DNA from: a virus
DNA length: 52,446 nt
Reading direction: 5' to 3' (one strand)
Virus record (IMG/VR): IMGVR_UViG_3300036792_000044
Span: 1-52,446 of that record
In this document: positions 6,882-35,825 of the stretch, piece after piece
Layout: each line of letters opens with the position of its first letter
Numbering within the stretch: the first letter of the stretch is position 1
Translations under genes and position numbers: made by a program
The notes under the pieces: generated by a model
Database searches by the model: none
What the model was told of the DNA's origin: nothing
Seen by the model: only the letters and a program-made list of their open reading frames with translations

Positions 6882-7280
6882 TCATCTTTCGTGTTGTGCC
6901 GCAGTAACATTGAAACCCGCTGCGACTCGGGCGGTCTGAATGTGCTGTCGTCCAGCATTGGTGATACGTGATACGCCGACCAGTCTCCCATTGCTGCCCA
7001 ACACCTTTCGCTGCTTACCCTCTCTGTCGTATACCCAACAGATCAGGCCCAGCTTGCGCAGGTCCGAGCAGCGGTGCCACCAACAGATACCTTGCTGGCG
7101 CAAACCCGCACGCTCGGCCAGTACCTCGTCGGTGAAAAGTGGTGAGTCAGTGAGTGATACGAGATAGGCTTCGGAAAGTATTGCGAGACAATGGCTTTGC
7201 GCCGTAGTCAGTAACTCGGCTGCAATGTGCGAAGTCTCGGGGTCGTCGCGTCGTACGCGTGGTATGTCGTCAAAGTCCAT
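6882..7280 (-). CDS. Winged-helix-like protein, 132 aa
   Basis: ATG at 7280 follows GGGAGATACC. It begins with RVRRDDPETSHIAAE, a motif shared by actinophage proteins with a C-terminal winged helix (FTDEVLAERAGLRQQG followed by LRKLGLICWV). It is probably a DNA-binding regulator or replication accessory protein. Moderately confident of the fold, not of the role. Confidence 0.65.
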   Translation of the reverse strand: MDFDDIPRVRRDDPETSHIAAELLTTAQSHCLAILSEAYLVSLTDSPLFTDEVLAERAGLRQQGICWWHRCSDLRKLGLICWVYDREGKQRKVLGSNGRLVGVSRITNAGRQHIQTARVAAGFNVTAAQHER

Positions 7281-7301
7281 GGTATCTCCCAGGTTTGAGA
7301 G

Positions 7302-7350
7302 GGCACGGTGTCGCCGGATTGGAGACAAAGCCATACAGCGACACCGTGCC
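7302..7350 (-). other. Intergenic hairpin, 13-bp perfect stem
   Basis: GGCACGGTGTCGC pairs exactly with GCGACACCGTGCC over a 23-nt loop, between the stop at 7356 and the start at 7280. The loop carries ATTGGAGACAAA on the plus strand, i.e. an inverted copy of the leader end that precedes genes at 10.5-14.5 kb. No T-run. Confidence 0.7.
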
Positions 7351-8872: not shown

Positions 8873-9293
8873 TTCCTGTCTCCATATCCTTATCTAGTTG
8901 CGCCAGAACATCATTGGTGAGTGGCGCGCTCACCAGTCTTGTGATTGCAGCAGCGGCGAATAGCACCGTTGCAAGGTGTCCAATCCCCGGCGCGCTGCGC
9001 TCGGAGTGGGATATGTAACTCTTCATGTAGTCGAAAACGACTGAGGGATCAGTGTTTCCGCCTGCTGTAGCGTACAGTTCCGGCAACTGCGAGCGTATGT
9101 ACGTCAGCAAATTGTCGAGACTGTCGGATGCCTCGGCCCACAACTGTTCTGCACCCTGTATGAGAGCCGGGTTACCGTTGACTTCTGCGAAGTGATCGCG
9201 TGCGGCGTCGTGGTCGGAATACGTTGCGCCGCACTGGCACATCACTGCACCGCTCGGGTACTCAATAGCTATGCCGTGCCGTTGCCTGTTCAT
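8859..9293 (-). CDS. Hypothetical protein with zinc-finger start, 144 aa
   Basis: ATG at 9293 overlaps the previous stop. Residues ~15-35 carry a C-x-C...H...H pattern (CQCGATYSDHDAARDHF). The remainder is a helical domain with an Ala-rich segment near the C-terminus. Function unknown. Confidence 0.75.
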   Translation of the reverse strand: MNRQRHGIAIEYPSGAVMCQCGATYSDHDAARDHFAEVNGNPALIQGAEQLWAEASDSLDNLLTYIRSQLPELYATAGGNTDPSVVFDYMKSYISHSERSAPGIGHLATVLFAAAAITRLVSAPLTNDVLAQLDKDMETGNDDH

Positions 9294-9512: not shown

Positions 9513-9744
9513 CCGCCGCTAGGAACGGATGGTCGACATTACCCTTGCGTGCAGTCACCAACGCGTCGAACAGGCGGATGGTGGACTCTTCGCTCGGGCA
9601 ATGTATTTCGATGCCGGTATGCCTGCCGCCGATGACGCGTATGACGTAGTGCATACCGTCGCCCTCGGGGTGATGCTCGGCCACAATGCTTTCGGTGCAA
9701 CGCTGGTAGCAGCGTATAAGTTGCTCGGGGTTTGCGAATGGCAT
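9508..9744 (-). CDS. Hypothetical protein, 78 aa
   Basis: ATG at 9744 follows CAGGAGACAAAGCATC, a good ribosome binding site. A small beta-strand protein (YVIRVIGGRHTGIEIHC). It is the first gene after the terminator at 9915-9947, so it should head the early operon. Function unknown. Confidence 0.75.
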   Translation of the reverse strand: MPFANPEQLIRCYQRCTESIVAEHHPEGDGMHYVIRVIGGRHTGIEIHCPSEESTIRLFDALVTARKGNVDHPFLAAV

Positions 9745-10534: not shown

Positions 10535-10611
10535 GTTTCGTCTCCAATCTGTTGTGTTTCGGACTGAGTTGTCCAGCGGCTCAGCCTCTTACGAGGCTGG
10601 CCTAGTACTAC
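10535..10611 (-). repeat. Leader element, degenerate copy
   Basis: Keeps the GATTGGAGAC end before the DUF732-like gene. Its hairpin is CAGCCTC/GAGGCTG (10582-10599, 4-nt loop), different in sequence from other copies but in the same place between stop and start. Confidence 0.6.
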
Positions 10612-10824
10612 TCAGTGCGTTCTCTTGTGCGCCTTGAGCCACGCGCCGAAGTCAATCAGCGTGTGCCCCTTGGCTTTCGCGTGTTCCACGTCCCCGGCAT
10701 ATGCGCCGGTTAGTTCCTCGAATGCCTGCTCCTGCCGCCATCGTTCGATACGGTAGGACGCGACGAGGTCGGCGTGAGCCGGTGAGCAAGACCTGTGGCG
10801 CGTACTGCATGGCGTGAAAGTCAT
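10612..10824 (-). CDS. Hypothetical protein, 70 aa
   Basis: Start ATG at 10824 is chosen because GATTGGAGACAGCA lies directly upstream, as in its neighbours. Two cysteines near the N-terminus, then an amphipathic helical body ending LIDFGAWLKAHKRTH. Function unknown; part of the AAA+ ATPase operon. Confidence 0.75.
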   Translation of the reverse strand: MTFTPCSTRHRSCSPAHADLVASYRIERWRQEQAFEELTGAYAGDVEHAKAKGHTLIDFGAWLKAHKRTH

Positions 10825-10912
10825 TGCTGTCTCCAATCGTTGGCTTGTCTCTTCAGTGGGGAGGGAACCACCCTAACCCAGACCCGCTGCACCGCAGCGG
10901 GTTTCGACTATC
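10825..10912 (-). repeat. Structured leader element, copy A
   Basis: Between the stop at 10913 and the start at 10824. First hairpin ACCCGCTGC-acc-GCAGCGGGT (10882-10902); second, weaker hairpin from GGG/AGGG paired with CCCT/CCC; then the conserved spacer and the Shine-Dalgarno GATTGGAGAC. Confidence 0.9.
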
Positions 10913-11251
10913 TCAGTGTGTCGACCATGTCTGGCCTCCGTCGTGTGAGTGCACGCCACGGGCCAGCGCTGCACGGTCAACGGCCTTACCCGCCAACATT
11001 TCTTGGCGTTGCAGGTTCATCTTGGCAGCAGCGCTACCAGACCGTGTGATGGTCCGGTAGATGCACGCGTCGGAGATACCGTCGCGGTCGCTGTCGGACA
11101 GCCCGAGGAACGTAACCGCTCCCTGTGGGCCAACTTTCAGCTTCAACCGGCCGCTTGAAATGAGCTTGTCAATCTGGCTCATTCGCTTGCGTACCTCTTC
11201 CTTGCGCTGCGCGAGCGTTTGGCGAGGCTTCAGCATTGTGTCGCATACCAT
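10913..11251 (-). CDS. Hypothetical protein of the AAA+ operon, 112 aa
   Basis: ATG at 11251 follows GATTGGAGACAAA. A helical N-terminus (RKEEVRKRMSQIDKLISSG) is followed by a compact domain with LKVGPQGAVTFLG and SDACIYRTI, ending HSHDGGQTW. The SDSDRDGISDAC stretch is Asp-rich and could bind metal. No family assigned with confidence. Confidence 0.75.
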   Translation of the reverse strand: MVCDTMLKPRQTLAQRKEEVRKRMSQIDKLISSGRLKLKVGPQGAVTFLGLSDSDRDGISDACIYRTITRSGSAAAKMNLQRQEMLAGKAVDRAALARGVHSHDGGQTWSTH

Positions 11252-11332
11252 TTTGTCTCCAATCGTTGTGGCAGTCTCTTCAGTGAGGGAATGCCAATCC
11301 CTCAGACCTGGTGCTAGGCACCAGGTTTCGAC
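11252..11332 (-). repeat. Structured leader element, copy B
   Basis: The first hairpin is ACCTGGTGC-tag-GCACCAGGT (11306-11326): both arms differ from the other copies yet pairing is exact, a compensatory change. The second hairpin is GAGGGA-atgccaa-TCCCTC (11285-11303 region). Same Shine-Dalgarno. Confidence 0.92.
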
Positions 11333-12070
11333 TTATCCGGCGAGGTCTATGTTCCTGCCGTTCTTCGGTCGCACGTACTCGACACCGCCGCTATTCTCGA
11401 TGTCGAGGAACTGCACGCGTGCCATCTTCAGACGCGTAAGCGCTTGCCGGTCAACCTCTTTCGCAGCAGCTTGACCAACCTGGCTCATCTTGTCTGCCAC
11501 CTGGCGAGACGCCTTAATGGCTGCTTGCAACCTCGGCGTTGCCTCCGGTGACAGCACCTTGCCGACCTGCGTTAGCTTGTTCGCGTTGTCTCGAATCATC
11601 TTGGGGTCCAACGCTTTAACGCCTGCCTGCATACCGTCCACCAACTGGCGTACCTCGCTGGCGATGGCACGAACCGTCTCCACGTCATCCTGAGCTATGC
11701 GACCAGTGATGACGTAGAACGAGATTCGCGTTGTCCGCGCCGTGGCGTTGAACTCGTCGGCAAGCCTGCGGGCCTCTTCGACGGCCTCTCGCAAATCTTC
11801 CTCTTTGTTGTTGGGGCAGATAAGCGAGTTGCTGAAAGCTGTTGCTACGCAATGCTTCAGGATTAGGCCACGAATCTTGGTCCGCTGCTTGATGGCTGCC
11901 TCTTGCTCGTCAACGTCGTTGACTTGCTTGCGAGTGTGAATGTCGGTTACCTCGGTACGGTCCATCCGCACCACGTCTCGGTCGATGTCGTGGTACGACA
12001 CATTGCCCTTAACGCTGGTGAACATCGACACCAACAGGCCAGGGCGCAGGGTGTGAAATTCCATTGTCAT
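11333..12070 (-). CDS. Hypothetical protein of the AAA+ operon, 245 aa
   Basis: ATG at 12070 follows GGAGACAAAC. Largely helical; residues ~130-215 are probably a long coiled region (ASEVRQLVDGMQAGVKALD, IKASRQVADKMSQVGQAA). The N-terminal ~60 residues are more strand-like. It lies directly downstream of the ATPase and may be its substrate or partner, an inference from position alone. Confidence 0.8.
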   Translation of the reverse strand: MTMEFHTLRPGLLVSMFTSVKGNVSYHDIDRDVVRMDRTEVTDIHTRKQVNDVDEQEAAIKQRTKIRGLILKHCVATAFSNSLICPNNKEEDLREAVEEARRLADEFNATARTTRISFYVITGRIAQDDVETVRAIASEVRQLVDGMQAGVKALDPKMIRDNANKLTQVGKVLSPEATPRLQAAIKASRQVADKMSQVGQAAAKEVDRQALTRLKMARVQFLDIENSGGVEYVRPKNGRNIDLAG

Positions 12071-12157
12071 GTTTGTCTCCAATCGGTTTGGCTTGTCTCT
12101 TCAGTGAGCAGGGAGCCACCCTAACTCAGACCCGCTGCTAGGCAGCGGGTTTCGACA
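12071..12157 (-). repeat. Structured leader element, copy C
   Basis: First hairpin CCCGCTGC-tag-GCAGCGGG. Second hairpin GAG/AGGG with CCCT/CTC, where copies A and D have GGG/CCC in the outer stem, again a compensated change. Shine-Dalgarno GATTGGAGACAAAC. Confidence 0.92.
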
Positions 12158-13735
12158 TCACACCAGATCAAGCTGGCGTCCGCGCTTGCGCGCCGTGCTG
12201 GTGTCCGCTGCGGCAGCGCTGGTCGCCGGGCGAGCACGCCCGAGCCAGAACTCCCGCAGACGTTCGATCTTCTCGAACGCTGACTTCGCCAGTGGCACAA
12301 CCGTTTTCGCTGCTTCGAGCAGGTCGTCGGTTGTGACCTCACGTGCGCCATCGTTGAACGCCGCGAACATTGCATCCGGTACCAGAGCAGCTAGCTCAGC
12401 GCCGGTAAACAAGTCCGTTGCTTCGCTGATAGCTGCCAGGTTGACATCTGCACTGCTCCGACCGTGCGCCTTCAGCGCGGCCGTCGTAATGCTGGCACGC
12501 TCGCCAGGTGTAGGCAGGTCAACCCACCACACCTCGTCAAAACGTCCCTTGCGCAACAACTCTGGCGGTAGCTTCTCGGCATTGTTGGCGGTCGCGATAA
12601 CGAACGCCTCACCTTGCCGGTCTTGCATCCACGAGAGGATGGCACCGAGCGCATCCGCACTCACGCCACCGTCGGCCGAACCCGAAGTTGCACCCTCAAG
12701 CGCCTTTTCGATTTCGTCCAACCAGACAACGCAGCGGCCGATAGCCTCGATGACGCCTAATGCCTTGCGCAAGTTGCCCTCTGACTCACCAACGTACTTG
12801 GACTTGAGCGCACCCAGGTCCAAGCGCAGCAGCGGAACGCCCCATGCCGTAGCAATTGCCTTGGCAGTCAACGACTTTCCGCAACCGGGAACGCCGACGA
12901 GCAGCGCACCCTTGGGAGCTGGCAGACCGTACTCTCTGGCAGCCGGTGAGTACGCGCTCGCACGCGACACCAACCATGCCTTCAGATTGTCAAGTCCGCC
13001 AACGGCTTCCAGCCCGCCCGGTATCGGGTCGAACCATTCGATGACACCCTCACGCGCAACCACTCGTTTCTTTTCGGCGGCGACGAGCGCGGAGTCAATC
13101 TTGAAAGCCTGCACCAGCGACCGGGCAAAGGTGGCTTGCGCCTCTTCGCCCGAAAGGCCAACCGCCGCATCGATTGCGGAGTCACGAGAACCGTTGGACA
13201 ACTTCTCAATTCGAGGGTCGTCTTGGTACGGCTCCATGGTGTCGTCCAGTAGCTCTGCAATTTCCTCGCGGTCGGGCAGAGGCCACTCGATAACCGTTGT
13301 GTGGTTGGCTAATTCGGCCGGTACATCTTTTGTTGGTGAGATCACGATGATGGCTTGCGCGTCATCTTGGTCCTTGGCGGGAAGCTGGCGAGCCAGATTC
13401 CTCAAGCGCCGCAAGGGCATTGCGCCCTGCGGGCCGGTGAGCCACACGGGTAAGTCCCGCATGATCCACACGCCACGCTCGCCGGACTTCTCCCCGATAG
13501 CTGTGAAAGCTGCGTCGGGGTCACCCTCGGCATTACCGTAGGTGTTCAACGGCTTTCCAGCCATTGTGGTGAATCCTGCTGCGATGTCCCATGTTTGAGC
13601 AAGGTAACCTGCATTGGCAGCCGCTTGGAAGAGGTACTGTTCTACACGTGCCTCTTCGCGAGTCACTACCCACAGCAACGGGTTACGTGCGCGGAGTAGT
13701 GCAGCGATGTCCAGGGTTACATCTTGTGATTTCAT
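12158..13735 (-). CDS. AAA+ ATPase, Ycf46-like
   Basis: 525 residues; ATG at 13735 chosen from the GATTGGAGACAAA directly upstream. The N-terminal ~230 residues match the degenerate ATPase-like region of Ycf46 proteins (LLRARNPLLWVVTREEARV). The AAA+ core has Walker A GVPGCGKS (281-288), Walker B VVWLDEIEK (336-344), sensor ATANN (381-385) and an Arg finger in RKGRFDE (395-401). LDLGALKSKYVGESE is the Ycf46 pattern. These are remodelling ATPases of poorly known function. The C-terminal tail is disordered and basic. It is the central enzyme of this seven-gene operon. Confidence 0.88.
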   Translation of the reverse strand: MKSQDVTLDIAALLRARNPLLWVVTREEARVEQYLFQAAANAGYLAQTWDIAAGFTTMAGKPLNTYGNAEGDPDAAFTAIGEKSGERGVWIMRDLPVWLTGPQGAMPLRRLRNLARQLPAKDQDDAQAIIVISPTKDVPAELANHTTVIEWPLPDREEIAELLDDTMEPYQDDPRIEKLSNGSRDSAIDAAVGLSGEEAQATFARSLVQAFKIDSALVAAEKKRVVAREGVIEWFDPIPGGLEAVGGLDNLKAWLVSRASAYSPAAREYGLPAPKGALLVGVPGCGKSLTAKAIATAWGVPLLRLDLGALKSKYVGESEGNLRKALGVIEAIGRCVVWLDEIEKALEGATSGSADGGVSADALGAILSWMQDRQGEAFVIATANNAEKLPPELLRKGRFDEVWWVDLPTPGERASITTAALKAHGRSSADVNLAAISEATDLFTGAELAALVPDAMFAAFNDGAREVTTDDLLEAAKTVVPLAKSAFEKIERLREFWLGRARPATSAAAADTSTARKRGRQLDLV

Positions 13736-13819
13736 TTTGTCTCCAATCGGTTTGGCTTGTCTCTTCAGTGGGGAGGGAGCCACCCTCGCCCAGACCCGCT
13801 GGCTCGCAGCGGGTTTCGA
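13736..13819 (-). repeat. Structured leader element, copy D
   Basis: Precedes the AAA+ ATPase gene. First hairpin CCCGCTG-gctcg-CAGCGGG, second GGG/AGGG with CCCT/CCC. Shine-Dalgarno GATTGGAGACAAA. Confidence 0.92.
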
Positions 13820-14239
13820 CTAGCAGTCGCAGCACTCGACGGGCGTAATCGGCATGATCGCCGAGCCGATGTCGATGTGTGCTGTCTTGGGGAATTCCTC
13901 GTAAAACGATTCTTTCCCAAGGTATTTCGCGTATGCGGTGCGAACCTTGGCGTCGGGGTTGATATTGAATACCTCGATCAACACGTCTCGGTAGACGTGC
14001 CAGCACACCGCAGCGACCCTACGCTCGCCGCTCCATTTAATGGAGCGTTTCTGCCCTGGCGCTAACTCTTCGACGGGTAATCCCATACCGTAGCCAGTGA
14101 CCTTGAGCTTCACCGTTGCGCGAAAGCGCTTGGGAGAGTAGGTGGTTCCGAAGTCTGCCCGTAGGTTGTCCGCGTACAGTGCGCCAGCTTTCGCGACGGC
14201 CTGCTCGAATTCCCCTGTGGTGATTCCGGTTATCTGCAT
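13820..14239 (-). CDS. Hypothetical protein of the AAA+ operon, 139 aa
   Basis: ATG at 14239 follows GATTGGAGACAAC. A mixed alpha/beta protein ending in a CCDC cysteine cluster that could bind metal. Contains AVCWHVYRDVLIEVF and KTAHIDIGSAIMP. No family recognised. Confidence 0.78.
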   Translation of the reverse strand: MQITGITTGEFEQAVAKAGALYADNLRADFGTTYSPKRFRATVKLKVTGYGMGLPVEELAPGQKRSIKWSGERRVAAVCWHVYRDVLIEVFNINPDAKVRTAYAKYLGKESFYEEFPKTAHIDIGSAIMPITPVECCDC

Positions 14240-14320
14240 GTTGTCTCCAATCGTTGTGGCAGTCTCTTCAGTGAGGGAATGCCAATCCCTCAGACCCGCT
14301 GTCTCGCAGCGGGTTTCGAC
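14240..14320 (-). repeat. Structured leader element, copy E
   Basis: First hairpin CCCGCTG-tctcg-CAGCGGG; second GAGGGA-atgccaa-TCCCTC, identical to copy B. Shine-Dalgarno GATTGGAGACAAC. Confidence 0.92.
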
Positions 14321-14545
14321 TTAAAACATGTGAACGGTTACCACGTATTCGTTCTCACCCTTGGCACCGCGCAAGCGCAGCGCACGAATGAGACCGTGGT
14401 CCATACCATCGAATTCGTCATCGTAGACAACAGCGCTCGCGGTGTTGATTGCCCGCGTGCAGAAGTTGTTTGCTTCCATCTCCGACGCGACACTCTTGGT
14501 CTTGGTCTGGTAGGTGGTCTGCGACTGCATCGTGATCTGGTACAT
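14321..14545 (-). CDS. Hypothetical protein of the AAA+ operon, 74 aa
   Basis: First gene of the operon. ATG at 14545 follows GATTGGAGACAAT. A small protein rich in polar residues, ending in a strand-like KGENEYVVTVHMF. Function unknown. Confidence 0.75.
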   Translation of the reverse strand: MYQITMQSQTTYQTKTKSVASEMEANNFCTRAINTASAVVYDDEFDGMDHGLIRALRLRGAKGENEYVVTVHMF

Positions 14546-14630
14546 ATTGTCTCCAATCTGAAATGGCTTATCTCGTCAGTGATTTGGGAGCCACCCAAAC
14601 CAGACCCGCTGCTAGGCAACGGGTTTCGAT
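14546..14630 (-). repeat. Structured leader element, copy F
   Basis: First hairpin CCCGTTGC-cta-GCAGCGGG on the RNA strand (one U-G wobble). Second hairpin TTTGGG-agcca-CCCAAA replaces the GC-only stem of other copies, a compensated change. It stands ahead of the first gene, so this copy is part of the operon's 5' leader. Confidence 0.92.
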
Positions 14631-15033
14631 TGAAGGAGACGGGCTTCGCCTGCGTCTTGATCTTGCACTACCTGTCGTCTATGAAGCGATCGGCGCATTA
14701 CCCTTGCTTGTGGCGCAGGCGCTACCCGGGACTTCCCGGTCTTACACAGTGAGCAACGACAGTTACTCTAGATCATGGAGCATTTTGAAACCTTATGTGG
14801 GACATCACCTTTCGAGACGTGAAAGGCGTCGACCTTACTGCTAGGTCGAACGGCGGGTGCGTGCAGCGACTGTCGAAGTTCTCGCGCATTCGGTTGCGGC
14901 ACTGCGTCTTACGTATGTCCTGGTGCGTTATAGGAATCCCTTGATTGGGGCTGGCTGCCATCCGCTCGTGTTCGTCGGCTCGTGCGCTCGTAACGTCTTA
15001 TCCAGTTGTCCACCGCGCTAGCGGCTTGCCGCT
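14631..15033 (-). other. Long untranslated leader, about 400 nt
   Basis: Lies between the promoter at 15034-15062 and leader copy F. No tRNA, no convincing gene. One weak frame (14773-14961, 62 codons, no good ribosome binding site) could be a leader peptide, but I do not call it. Confidence 0.55.
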
Positions 15034-15036
15034 AGC
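15017..15036. promoter_or_regulatory. Palindromic operator overlapping -10
   Basis: GCTAGCGG-CTTG-CCGCTAGC, perfect 8-bp arms. It overlaps the -10 hexamer and the expected transcription start of the promoter at 15034-15062, the classical position for a repressor site. Confidence 0.75.
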
Positions 15037-15062
15037 TTATTCACATGTCCCCACATTGTCAA
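15034..15062 (-). promoter_or_regulatory. Sigma-70-type promoter of the AAA+ operon
   Basis: Minus strand: TTGACA (15057-15062), a 17-bp spacer, TAAGCT (15034-15039). This is the best consensus promoter in the window and reads into the 14.5-10.0 kb operon. Confidence 0.85.
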
Positions 15063-35216: not shown

Positions 35217-35825
35217 TTACGTGGTCTGCCCGTCGTTGACGTAGAGGTACCCGTGGTTCTTGTTGCTGTCGGGGTACGCCTTGAGCGTGCACTCGATGGT
35301 CATGTACGCCTTGTGGGTCATGTCGATTTCACCGACAGTCACGACGCGTCCAATCGGAATGACAATGCGGACAAGGTTTTCCGCGTAGAAACCGTCGAAC
35401 ACCCACGAGCGCGTGTCGAGCAACTTGGGGTTGAACTTGACGGCGATTTCCTTGCCGTTCGTCGCAGTCGCCGCGACGACTGAAACGTTGGAGATTCCGA
35501 AGCTGGCTTTCAAGACCTCGACGTTGCGGAATTGCATGAGCCGGAACGTCATTGTCCTGTCGTACTGCGTCTGCAACGTACCCGCGAGGTCGCCGCCCCA
35601 GACGAAAACGTCTGTCGTGGAGCGGGTTTCACGCTGCTTGAGTCCGTTGTCGTCGGCGAACCCGAGGTCGGCGAACCCGGTTGACGGCGTACCGTCGAGG
35701 TCGGCGTAACTCGTTGTGGGAAGGGCAGTTCCGATGGGTGCCCAGAGAATCGATCCACTGGTGCGTGGTGATGGAGCCAGTAGTTCCAGCACGCTATCAG
35801 CTGTAACTGGCACGGGTGCAGTCAT
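35217..35825 (-). CDS. Major tail protein
   Basis: 202 residues, beta-rich, no signal or membrane segment. Located between tail terminator and chaperones. Motifs TTDVFVWGGDLAGTLQTQYD and ATNGKEIAVKF resemble actinophage tail tube subunits. Probably abundantly expressed; the 5' gap holds tandem repeats. Confidence 0.85.
   Translation of the reverse strand: MTAPVPVTADSVLELLAPSPRTSGSILWAPIGTALPTTSYADLDGTPSTGFADLGFADDNGLKQRETRSTTDVFVWGGDLAGTLQTQYDRTMTFRLMQFRNVEVLKASFGISNVSVVAATATNGKEIAVKFNPKLLDTRSWVFDGFYAENLVRIVIPIGRVVTVGEIDMTHKAYMTIECTLKAYPDSNKNHGYLYVNDGQTT

Follow-up and report, generated by a model that had tools for sequence, protein, structure and literature searches.

What is the function of a structured RNA that recurs, with changing sequence and constant pairing, ahead of one gene after another in a phage operon? 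The question is raised by a 52-kb tailed-phage record (IMG/VR IMGVR_UViG_3300036792_000044; the window denotes the whole 52,446-nucleotide stretch analysed), in which consecutive genes from 14545 to 10824 on the minus strand are each preceded by an element of about 69 nt, six in all, that occupies the intergenic gap. The terminase large subunit and the remaining genes inspected are encoded on this strand too. Each element lies directly 5′ of an ATG (14545, 14239, 13735, 12070, 11251, and 10824) and ends in GATTGGAGACA. A sequence-only reading had described these as a two-hairpin leader RNA present in six or seven copies (its copies A to F being copies F to A here). The six were confirmed from the sequence at the sites given, and the RNA is indeed structured, but the core motifs, an open stem II, and a pseudoknot had been overlooked. 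Judged from these features, the six elements are very probably type II hammerhead ribozymes that would cut the operon mRNA after a GUC, at a point preceded by the stop codon of one gene and followed by the ribosome binding site (RBS) of the next.

Every copy reads, from 5′ to 3′, AGUC, UGUC, or AAUC, then GAAA, a hairpin, GUC, a second hairpin, CUGANGA, GAC or GAU, a tail, GGAG, and the ATG. Loops close stems I and III and stem II is left open in all six, which is the type II layout. The core is CUGACGA in copy A and CUGAAGA in copies B to F, GAAA with the A15.1-U16.1 pair closing stem III is found in six of six, and the cleavage triplet, of the NUH kind, is GUC in all six and in 226 of 233 cases among the matches listed in a wider set. 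Copy A (14564–14631, minus strand as for all that follow; before ATG 14545, the operon's first gene) comprises stem II (AAUC/GAUA), GAAA at 14627–14624, stem III at 14624–14604, C17 at 14603, a predicted cleavage site between 14603 and 14602, stem I at 14602–14580, CUGACGA at 14579–14573, and a pseudoknot UGGCU/AGCCA. Copy B (14257–14321, before ATG 14239) would be cleaved at 14293/14292 and has the pseudoknot UGGCA/UGCCA; copy C (13753–13821, cleavage 13793/13792, UGGCU/AGCCA) precedes an AAA+ ATPase gene (12161–13735, ATG 13735; Pfam AAA, phrog_8638); and copies D (12089–12157, before ATG 12070, cleavage 12129/12128, UGGCU/AGCCA), E (11269–11333, before ATG 11251, cleavage 11305/11304, UGGCA/UGCCA), and F (10841–10909, before ATG 10824, cleavage 10881/10880, UGGUU/AGCCA with a wobble) complete the series. 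The two hairpins originally described correspond to stem III (hairpin 1) and stem I (hairpin 2), and all the pairing claims made for them check out, including CCTGGTGC/GCACCAGG before 11251, the wobble CCCGUUGC before 14545, and the pairing types of stem I; stem III of copy E is CCUGGUGC/GCACCAGG.

On both strands taken together, a descriptor combining the core with the three stems matched the window exactly six times; 200 dinucleotide-shuffled versions of it yielded no match. All copies were missed by a default Rfam search of the window at the gathering cut-off. At a relaxed threshold, Hammerhead_II (RF02276) was the best match, with copy A at 29.6 bits (E-value 0.0042), and a per-genome search added copy C at 30.7 bits, so that only two of the six window copies were reported, both below the gathering score of 37 bits, which is a cut-off of the model and not a property of ribozymes; copies from related phages exceeded it (45.1, 41.2, 39.3, and 39.2 bits). 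The low scores of the window copies, and the bulge or internal loop that breaks stem I in copies C, D, and F and could slow cleavage there, would suit decayed hammerheads retained as hairpins stabilising the 5′ and 3′ ends of mRNAs, for which cleavage no longer matters. The catalytic nucleotides are nevertheless all intact in six of six copies and the pseudoknot, unneeded by hairpins alone, covaries between copies, which makes this reading very unlikely.

The pseudoknot joins the loop of stem I to the 3′ tail behind stem II, and five base pairs are possible in all six copies. Perreault et al. 2011 (PMC3088659) described this loop I/3′ tail interaction in type II hammerheads and demonstrated that fast cleavage depends on it. 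Related phages pair the same regions as UUGGUA/UACCAA, UGGGC/GCCCA, and GAGC/GCUC. Stem II pairs covary as well (GTC/GAC, ATC/GAT, and GGC/GCC); the descriptor demands the stems, so stem pairing within its set is partly circular evidence and the pseudoknot test alone is independent. When tails were swapped between elements whose stem I hairpin spans 20 nt or more (n = 29), at least five consecutive Watson-Crick pairs were found in 72% of the native combinations versus 20% of the swapped ones; elements with a shorter stem I (n = 196) gave no signal (2% versus 2.5%). The selection on RNA structure that had been proposed for these leaders is supported, with stem II and the pseudoknot both covarying.

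A pseudoknot directly 5′ of every RBS is also what would be expected of a translational operator, in which the leader is bound by a phage protein and cleavage plays no part. T4 gp32, for instance, binds a pseudoknot of its own mRNA. Such an operator would leave unexplained the invariant GAAA, CUGANGA, and GUC, which no stem requires, as well as a stem II and a type II topology matching those of a known ribozyme, and is considered highly improbable. An intrinsic terminator (a G+C-rich hairpin plus T-run) was rejected because there is no such site at the elements, in agreement with the earlier remark that no T-run follows them. Among the three functions first put forward, it is the processing site that has held up; a layer of coordinate control is likely too, apparently acting via the RBS block and not via the hairpins.

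The wider set was drawn from virus contigs identified either through a homologous ATPase or through hammerhead patterns, the AAA+ ATPase gene (12161–13735) having served as the query for sister phages, and holds at least 215 distinct hammerheads with flanks. Among the matches listed, 172 of 215 (80%; control 8%) have GAAA preceded, at a distance of −3 to 12 nt, by the stop codon of an open reading frame of at least 50 codons, the usual distance of 3–4 nt placing it directly against stem II, and an RBS and start codon follow within 70 nt behind the core in 198 of 215 (control 23%). A single gene fills 70 of the 129 intervals between successive hammerheads among the matches listed. Series of at least four hammerheads occur in at least about 18 contigs; the longest among the matches listed numbers 12 (G005, IMG/VR 3300047317_000073), followed by eight each in G007, L159, and L167 and seven in L154. 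The cultured Streptomyces phages Yara and Gibson hold four and five strict matches, respectively, none of them annotated. Searches for relatives of gene 4, searches of plasmids, and searches of annotated phages with two arrays found nothing. Phages of quite another kind (L029, L036, L042, and L044) likewise have hammerheads in the neighbourhood of this AAA+ ATPase gene. The Corndog-type phage MadKillah (L100) has a related ATPase and no hammerhead in the 17-kb stretch searched; a palindrome, TGTTCGGAAACCGAACA (TGTTCGG..CCGAACA), stands at 7205–7345, 9036–9125, and 9630–9690 before its ATPase gene and neighbouring genes, occupying the place held by hammerheads in the window.

From established hammerhead chemistry, cleavage after GUC by each ribozyme would divide the polycistronic transcript into single-gene messages with protected ends, the upstream mRNA closing with the stem III hairpin and a 2′,3′-cyclic phosphate and the downstream mRNA opening with a 5′-OH and the stem I hairpin/pseudoknot. 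The leaders predicted after cleavage measure 53–58 nt on all six mRNAs. The operon would thus be punctuated by stop codon, ribozyme, RBS, and start codon, in that order. With the stop codon so close, a terminating ribosome could cover the ribozyme, and cleavage in the cell may therefore be partial or regulated.

Directly 5′ of copy A, and of no other copy, lies GTCTCCTTCAATC (14628–14640, minus strand), which can pair with the RBS block (GTCTCC/GGAGAC and AATC/GATT); this fold and stem II are mutually exclusive because both use AATC, which in stem II forms the 5′ strand. It is possible that such a fold hides the first RBS until cleavage takes place. The sequence TCTCCTTCAATC occurs once per contig in four of four sister phages, always at the first gene, even in G003, where that gene is preceded by another type of element. 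A promoter-like TTGACA-N17-TAAGCT (15034–15062, minus strand) precedes the cleavage site of copy A by some 425 nt; it is the sole window match to TTGACA-N17-TAnnnT on either strand, and comparable sites exist in G001 and G002, while a general promoter scan of the window with a stricter second hexamer did not list it. Between this site and the first ribozyme extends a leader of about 400 nt (14640–15034, minus strand) with no evident conserved gene, and cleavage at the first ribozyme would free it as a separate RNA.

Cleavage might be under control: ribosomes that terminate on the adjoining stop codon would exert one influence and, for the first gene, formation of the alternative helix GTCTCCTTCAATC/GATTGGAGAC, which would hide the RBS and remove stem II, would exert another. 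This reading, which would refine rather than exclude the hammerhead explanation, draws on the stop codon found against stem II in most of the 215 cases among the matches listed and on a leader block that is unique, shared by four of four sister phages, and placed even before a non-hammerhead element; compact gene packing alone could put stop codons there, and regulated cleavage is considered possible though on balance doubtful.

The seventh junction differs. Before ATG 10534, the interval taken for a further copy (10561–10615, minus strand) shares only the RBS block with the six and contains a different, putatively pseudoknotted RNA, designated here the G-type element, with P1 (UGAGU/ACUCA), an inner hairpin, and P3 (GGAC/GUCC). 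A hammerhead was rejected for this copy, as CUGAGUAG does not fit CUGANGA and the relatives of this copy lack GAAA, and comparison with Rfam covariance models returned no match at E ≤ 10. P1 includes the stop codon of the upstream gene and the P3 loop holds the 3′ strand of P1; sharing one loop, P1 and P3 may be too tight to form together. Homologues were found in G001, G002, and G003, with a more distant one in L031. Across 15 sequences, 93% of the helix cells are paired, against 82% when shuffled and 32–40% when slid, and P3 is 100% paired with changes on both sides in three of its four pairs. Six other contigs with the G-type pattern (L220, L222, L223, L224, L226, and L228) were dismissed as coincidences in unrelated sequence.

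Comparison of orthologous junctions in the window, G001, G002, and G003, in this order, revealed hammerhead, hammerhead, G-type, and G-type at the ATPase gene; hammerhead followed by three G-type elements at gene 12070 and likewise at gene 11251; and G-type, hammerhead, G-type, and G-type at gene 10534. This exchange in both directions is best explained by the same job for both elements, and the G-type element is probably functionally equivalent to the hammerheads, doing its work at the seventh junction by cleavage or by another route. By analogy from substitution, it is possibly an undescribed ribozyme; comparable reasoning has earlier uncovered ribozyme classes near hammerhead-associated genes (summarised in PMC10085705). 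G-type elements in place of hammerheads at orthologous junctions were observed at 10561–10615 (minus strand) and in L080, L083, L085, and L031. Two more structured junction elements, in L085 (before the gene at 11481 of G003) and L080 (before the gene at 35528 of G001), keep the order of helices with different sequence; in each, an inserted hairpin is followed by a second one with a loop that pairs upstream.

What the seven junctions have in common is the RBS block, which is GATTGGAGACA at 10828–10838, 11254–11264, 12074–12084, 13738–13748, 14242–14252, and 14548–14558 and GATTGGAGACG before the 10534 gene (10539–10549, all minus strand). With at most one mismatch, GATTGGAGACA occurs nine times in the window, versus 0.78 expected, and the block GATTGGAGACAAA, common to all seven genes, is conserved beyond the needs of an RBS. 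Its exact complement, TTTGTCTCCAATC (7329–7317), forms the loop of a hairpin, GGCACGGTGTCG..CGACACCGTGCC, at 7302–7350 on the minus strand, a candidate antisense RNA. G001 and G002 have an identical loop, and the single substitution in that of G003 is compatible with a G-U pair; stem sequences vary, with pairing kept in all four phages. The predicted duplex between the loop and its seven window targets ranges from −19.7 to −27.4 kcal/mol, and the same prediction for 54 other RBS-like window sites gave a mean of −12.8 kcal/mol (lowest −19.8). The mRNAs released by cleavage would probably be addressed together through this block by the antisense hairpin RNA. The full proposal, in which the G-type element is a self-cleaving ribozyme interchangeable with hammerheads and a ribozyme at every junction is combined with an antisense hairpin acting on the common RBS block, is put forward tentatively, as rather unlikely to be correct in all its parts.

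Type II hammerheads, their pseudoknot, their prophage clusters, and the idea of mRNA processing, proposed for such clusters in 2011, are already known (PMC3088659). The window elements resemble RF02276 in core, GUC site, type II topology, pseudoknot, and clustering around phage genes, and differ in scoring below its gathering score. The clusters of PMC3088659, of which a triple was tested, flank individual genes or short blocks, whereas one element stands before each of six genes here and series in other phages reach 12 among the matches listed. Cleavage in vitro has been shown for type II hammerheads with the pseudoknot and for prophage clusters, one of which also cleaved in E. coli; in the same study, four of 18 consensus-fitting hammerheads were inactive in vitro (PMC3088659). 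In haloviruses HF1/HF2, a hammerhead likewise lies directly upstream of an early gene, 13 nt before the helicase gene, and the mRNA 5′ end was mapped within 3 nt of the cleavage site (PMC3088659); it differs in being a single copy with a variant core in an archaeal virus. The open-access papers searched, leaving room for earlier reports elsewhere, gave no account of six to twelve successive genes each preceded by a hammerhead, of the stop-codon rule, of hammerheads and another structured RNA replacing one another, or of the antisense hairpin. The role of hammerheads in phages has been an open question since 2011; series with a ribozyme for every gene, upstream stop codons placed right against them, and functional replacement by another RNA argue for a definite one, the cutting of an operon into single-gene mRNAs, which is testable in the cultured phages Yara and Gibson, carriers of such hammerheads. 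The replacement principle, in turn, leads to a possible new ribozyme class.

A conserved Shine-Dalgarno-containing block before many non-structural genes is also known from the SAS/ESAS of cluster K mycobacteriophages (PMC3203893, PMC11373665), and the single reverse SAS of Anaya and Adephagia sits in a hairpin loop like the anti-RBS block here. The SAS differs in being a 13-bp GGGATAGGAGCCC (PMC3203893) as against GATTGGAGACA, and the ESAS is a DNA inverted repeat with a putative promoter, unlike the present elements. SAS/ESAS was rejected as their identity on account of the different sequence and the little RNA-structure support for ESAS, and no hammerheads were found in the Anaya and Adephagia stretches searched. 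In Anaya (L251, near 59870) as well as Adephagia (L252, near 58682), the hairpin whose loop contains the reverse SAS, described in 2011, is a stable one; that of Adephagia falls between genes 92 and 93, at the apparent start of late transcription (PMC11373665). This arrangement suggests antisense control of the SAS-bearing genes. Antisense control of an RBS block is plausibly, on sequence grounds, a device shared with cluster K; the anti-RBS hairpin suggests a concrete role for the hitherto unexplained SAS blocks, and if the regulon reading is true the same antisense logic would account for them. Cluster K phages also encode an RtcB-like RNA ligase (gp88 in Anaya, L251; gp84 in Adephagia, L252). 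Ligases of the RtcB type join ends of the kind that hammerheads make.
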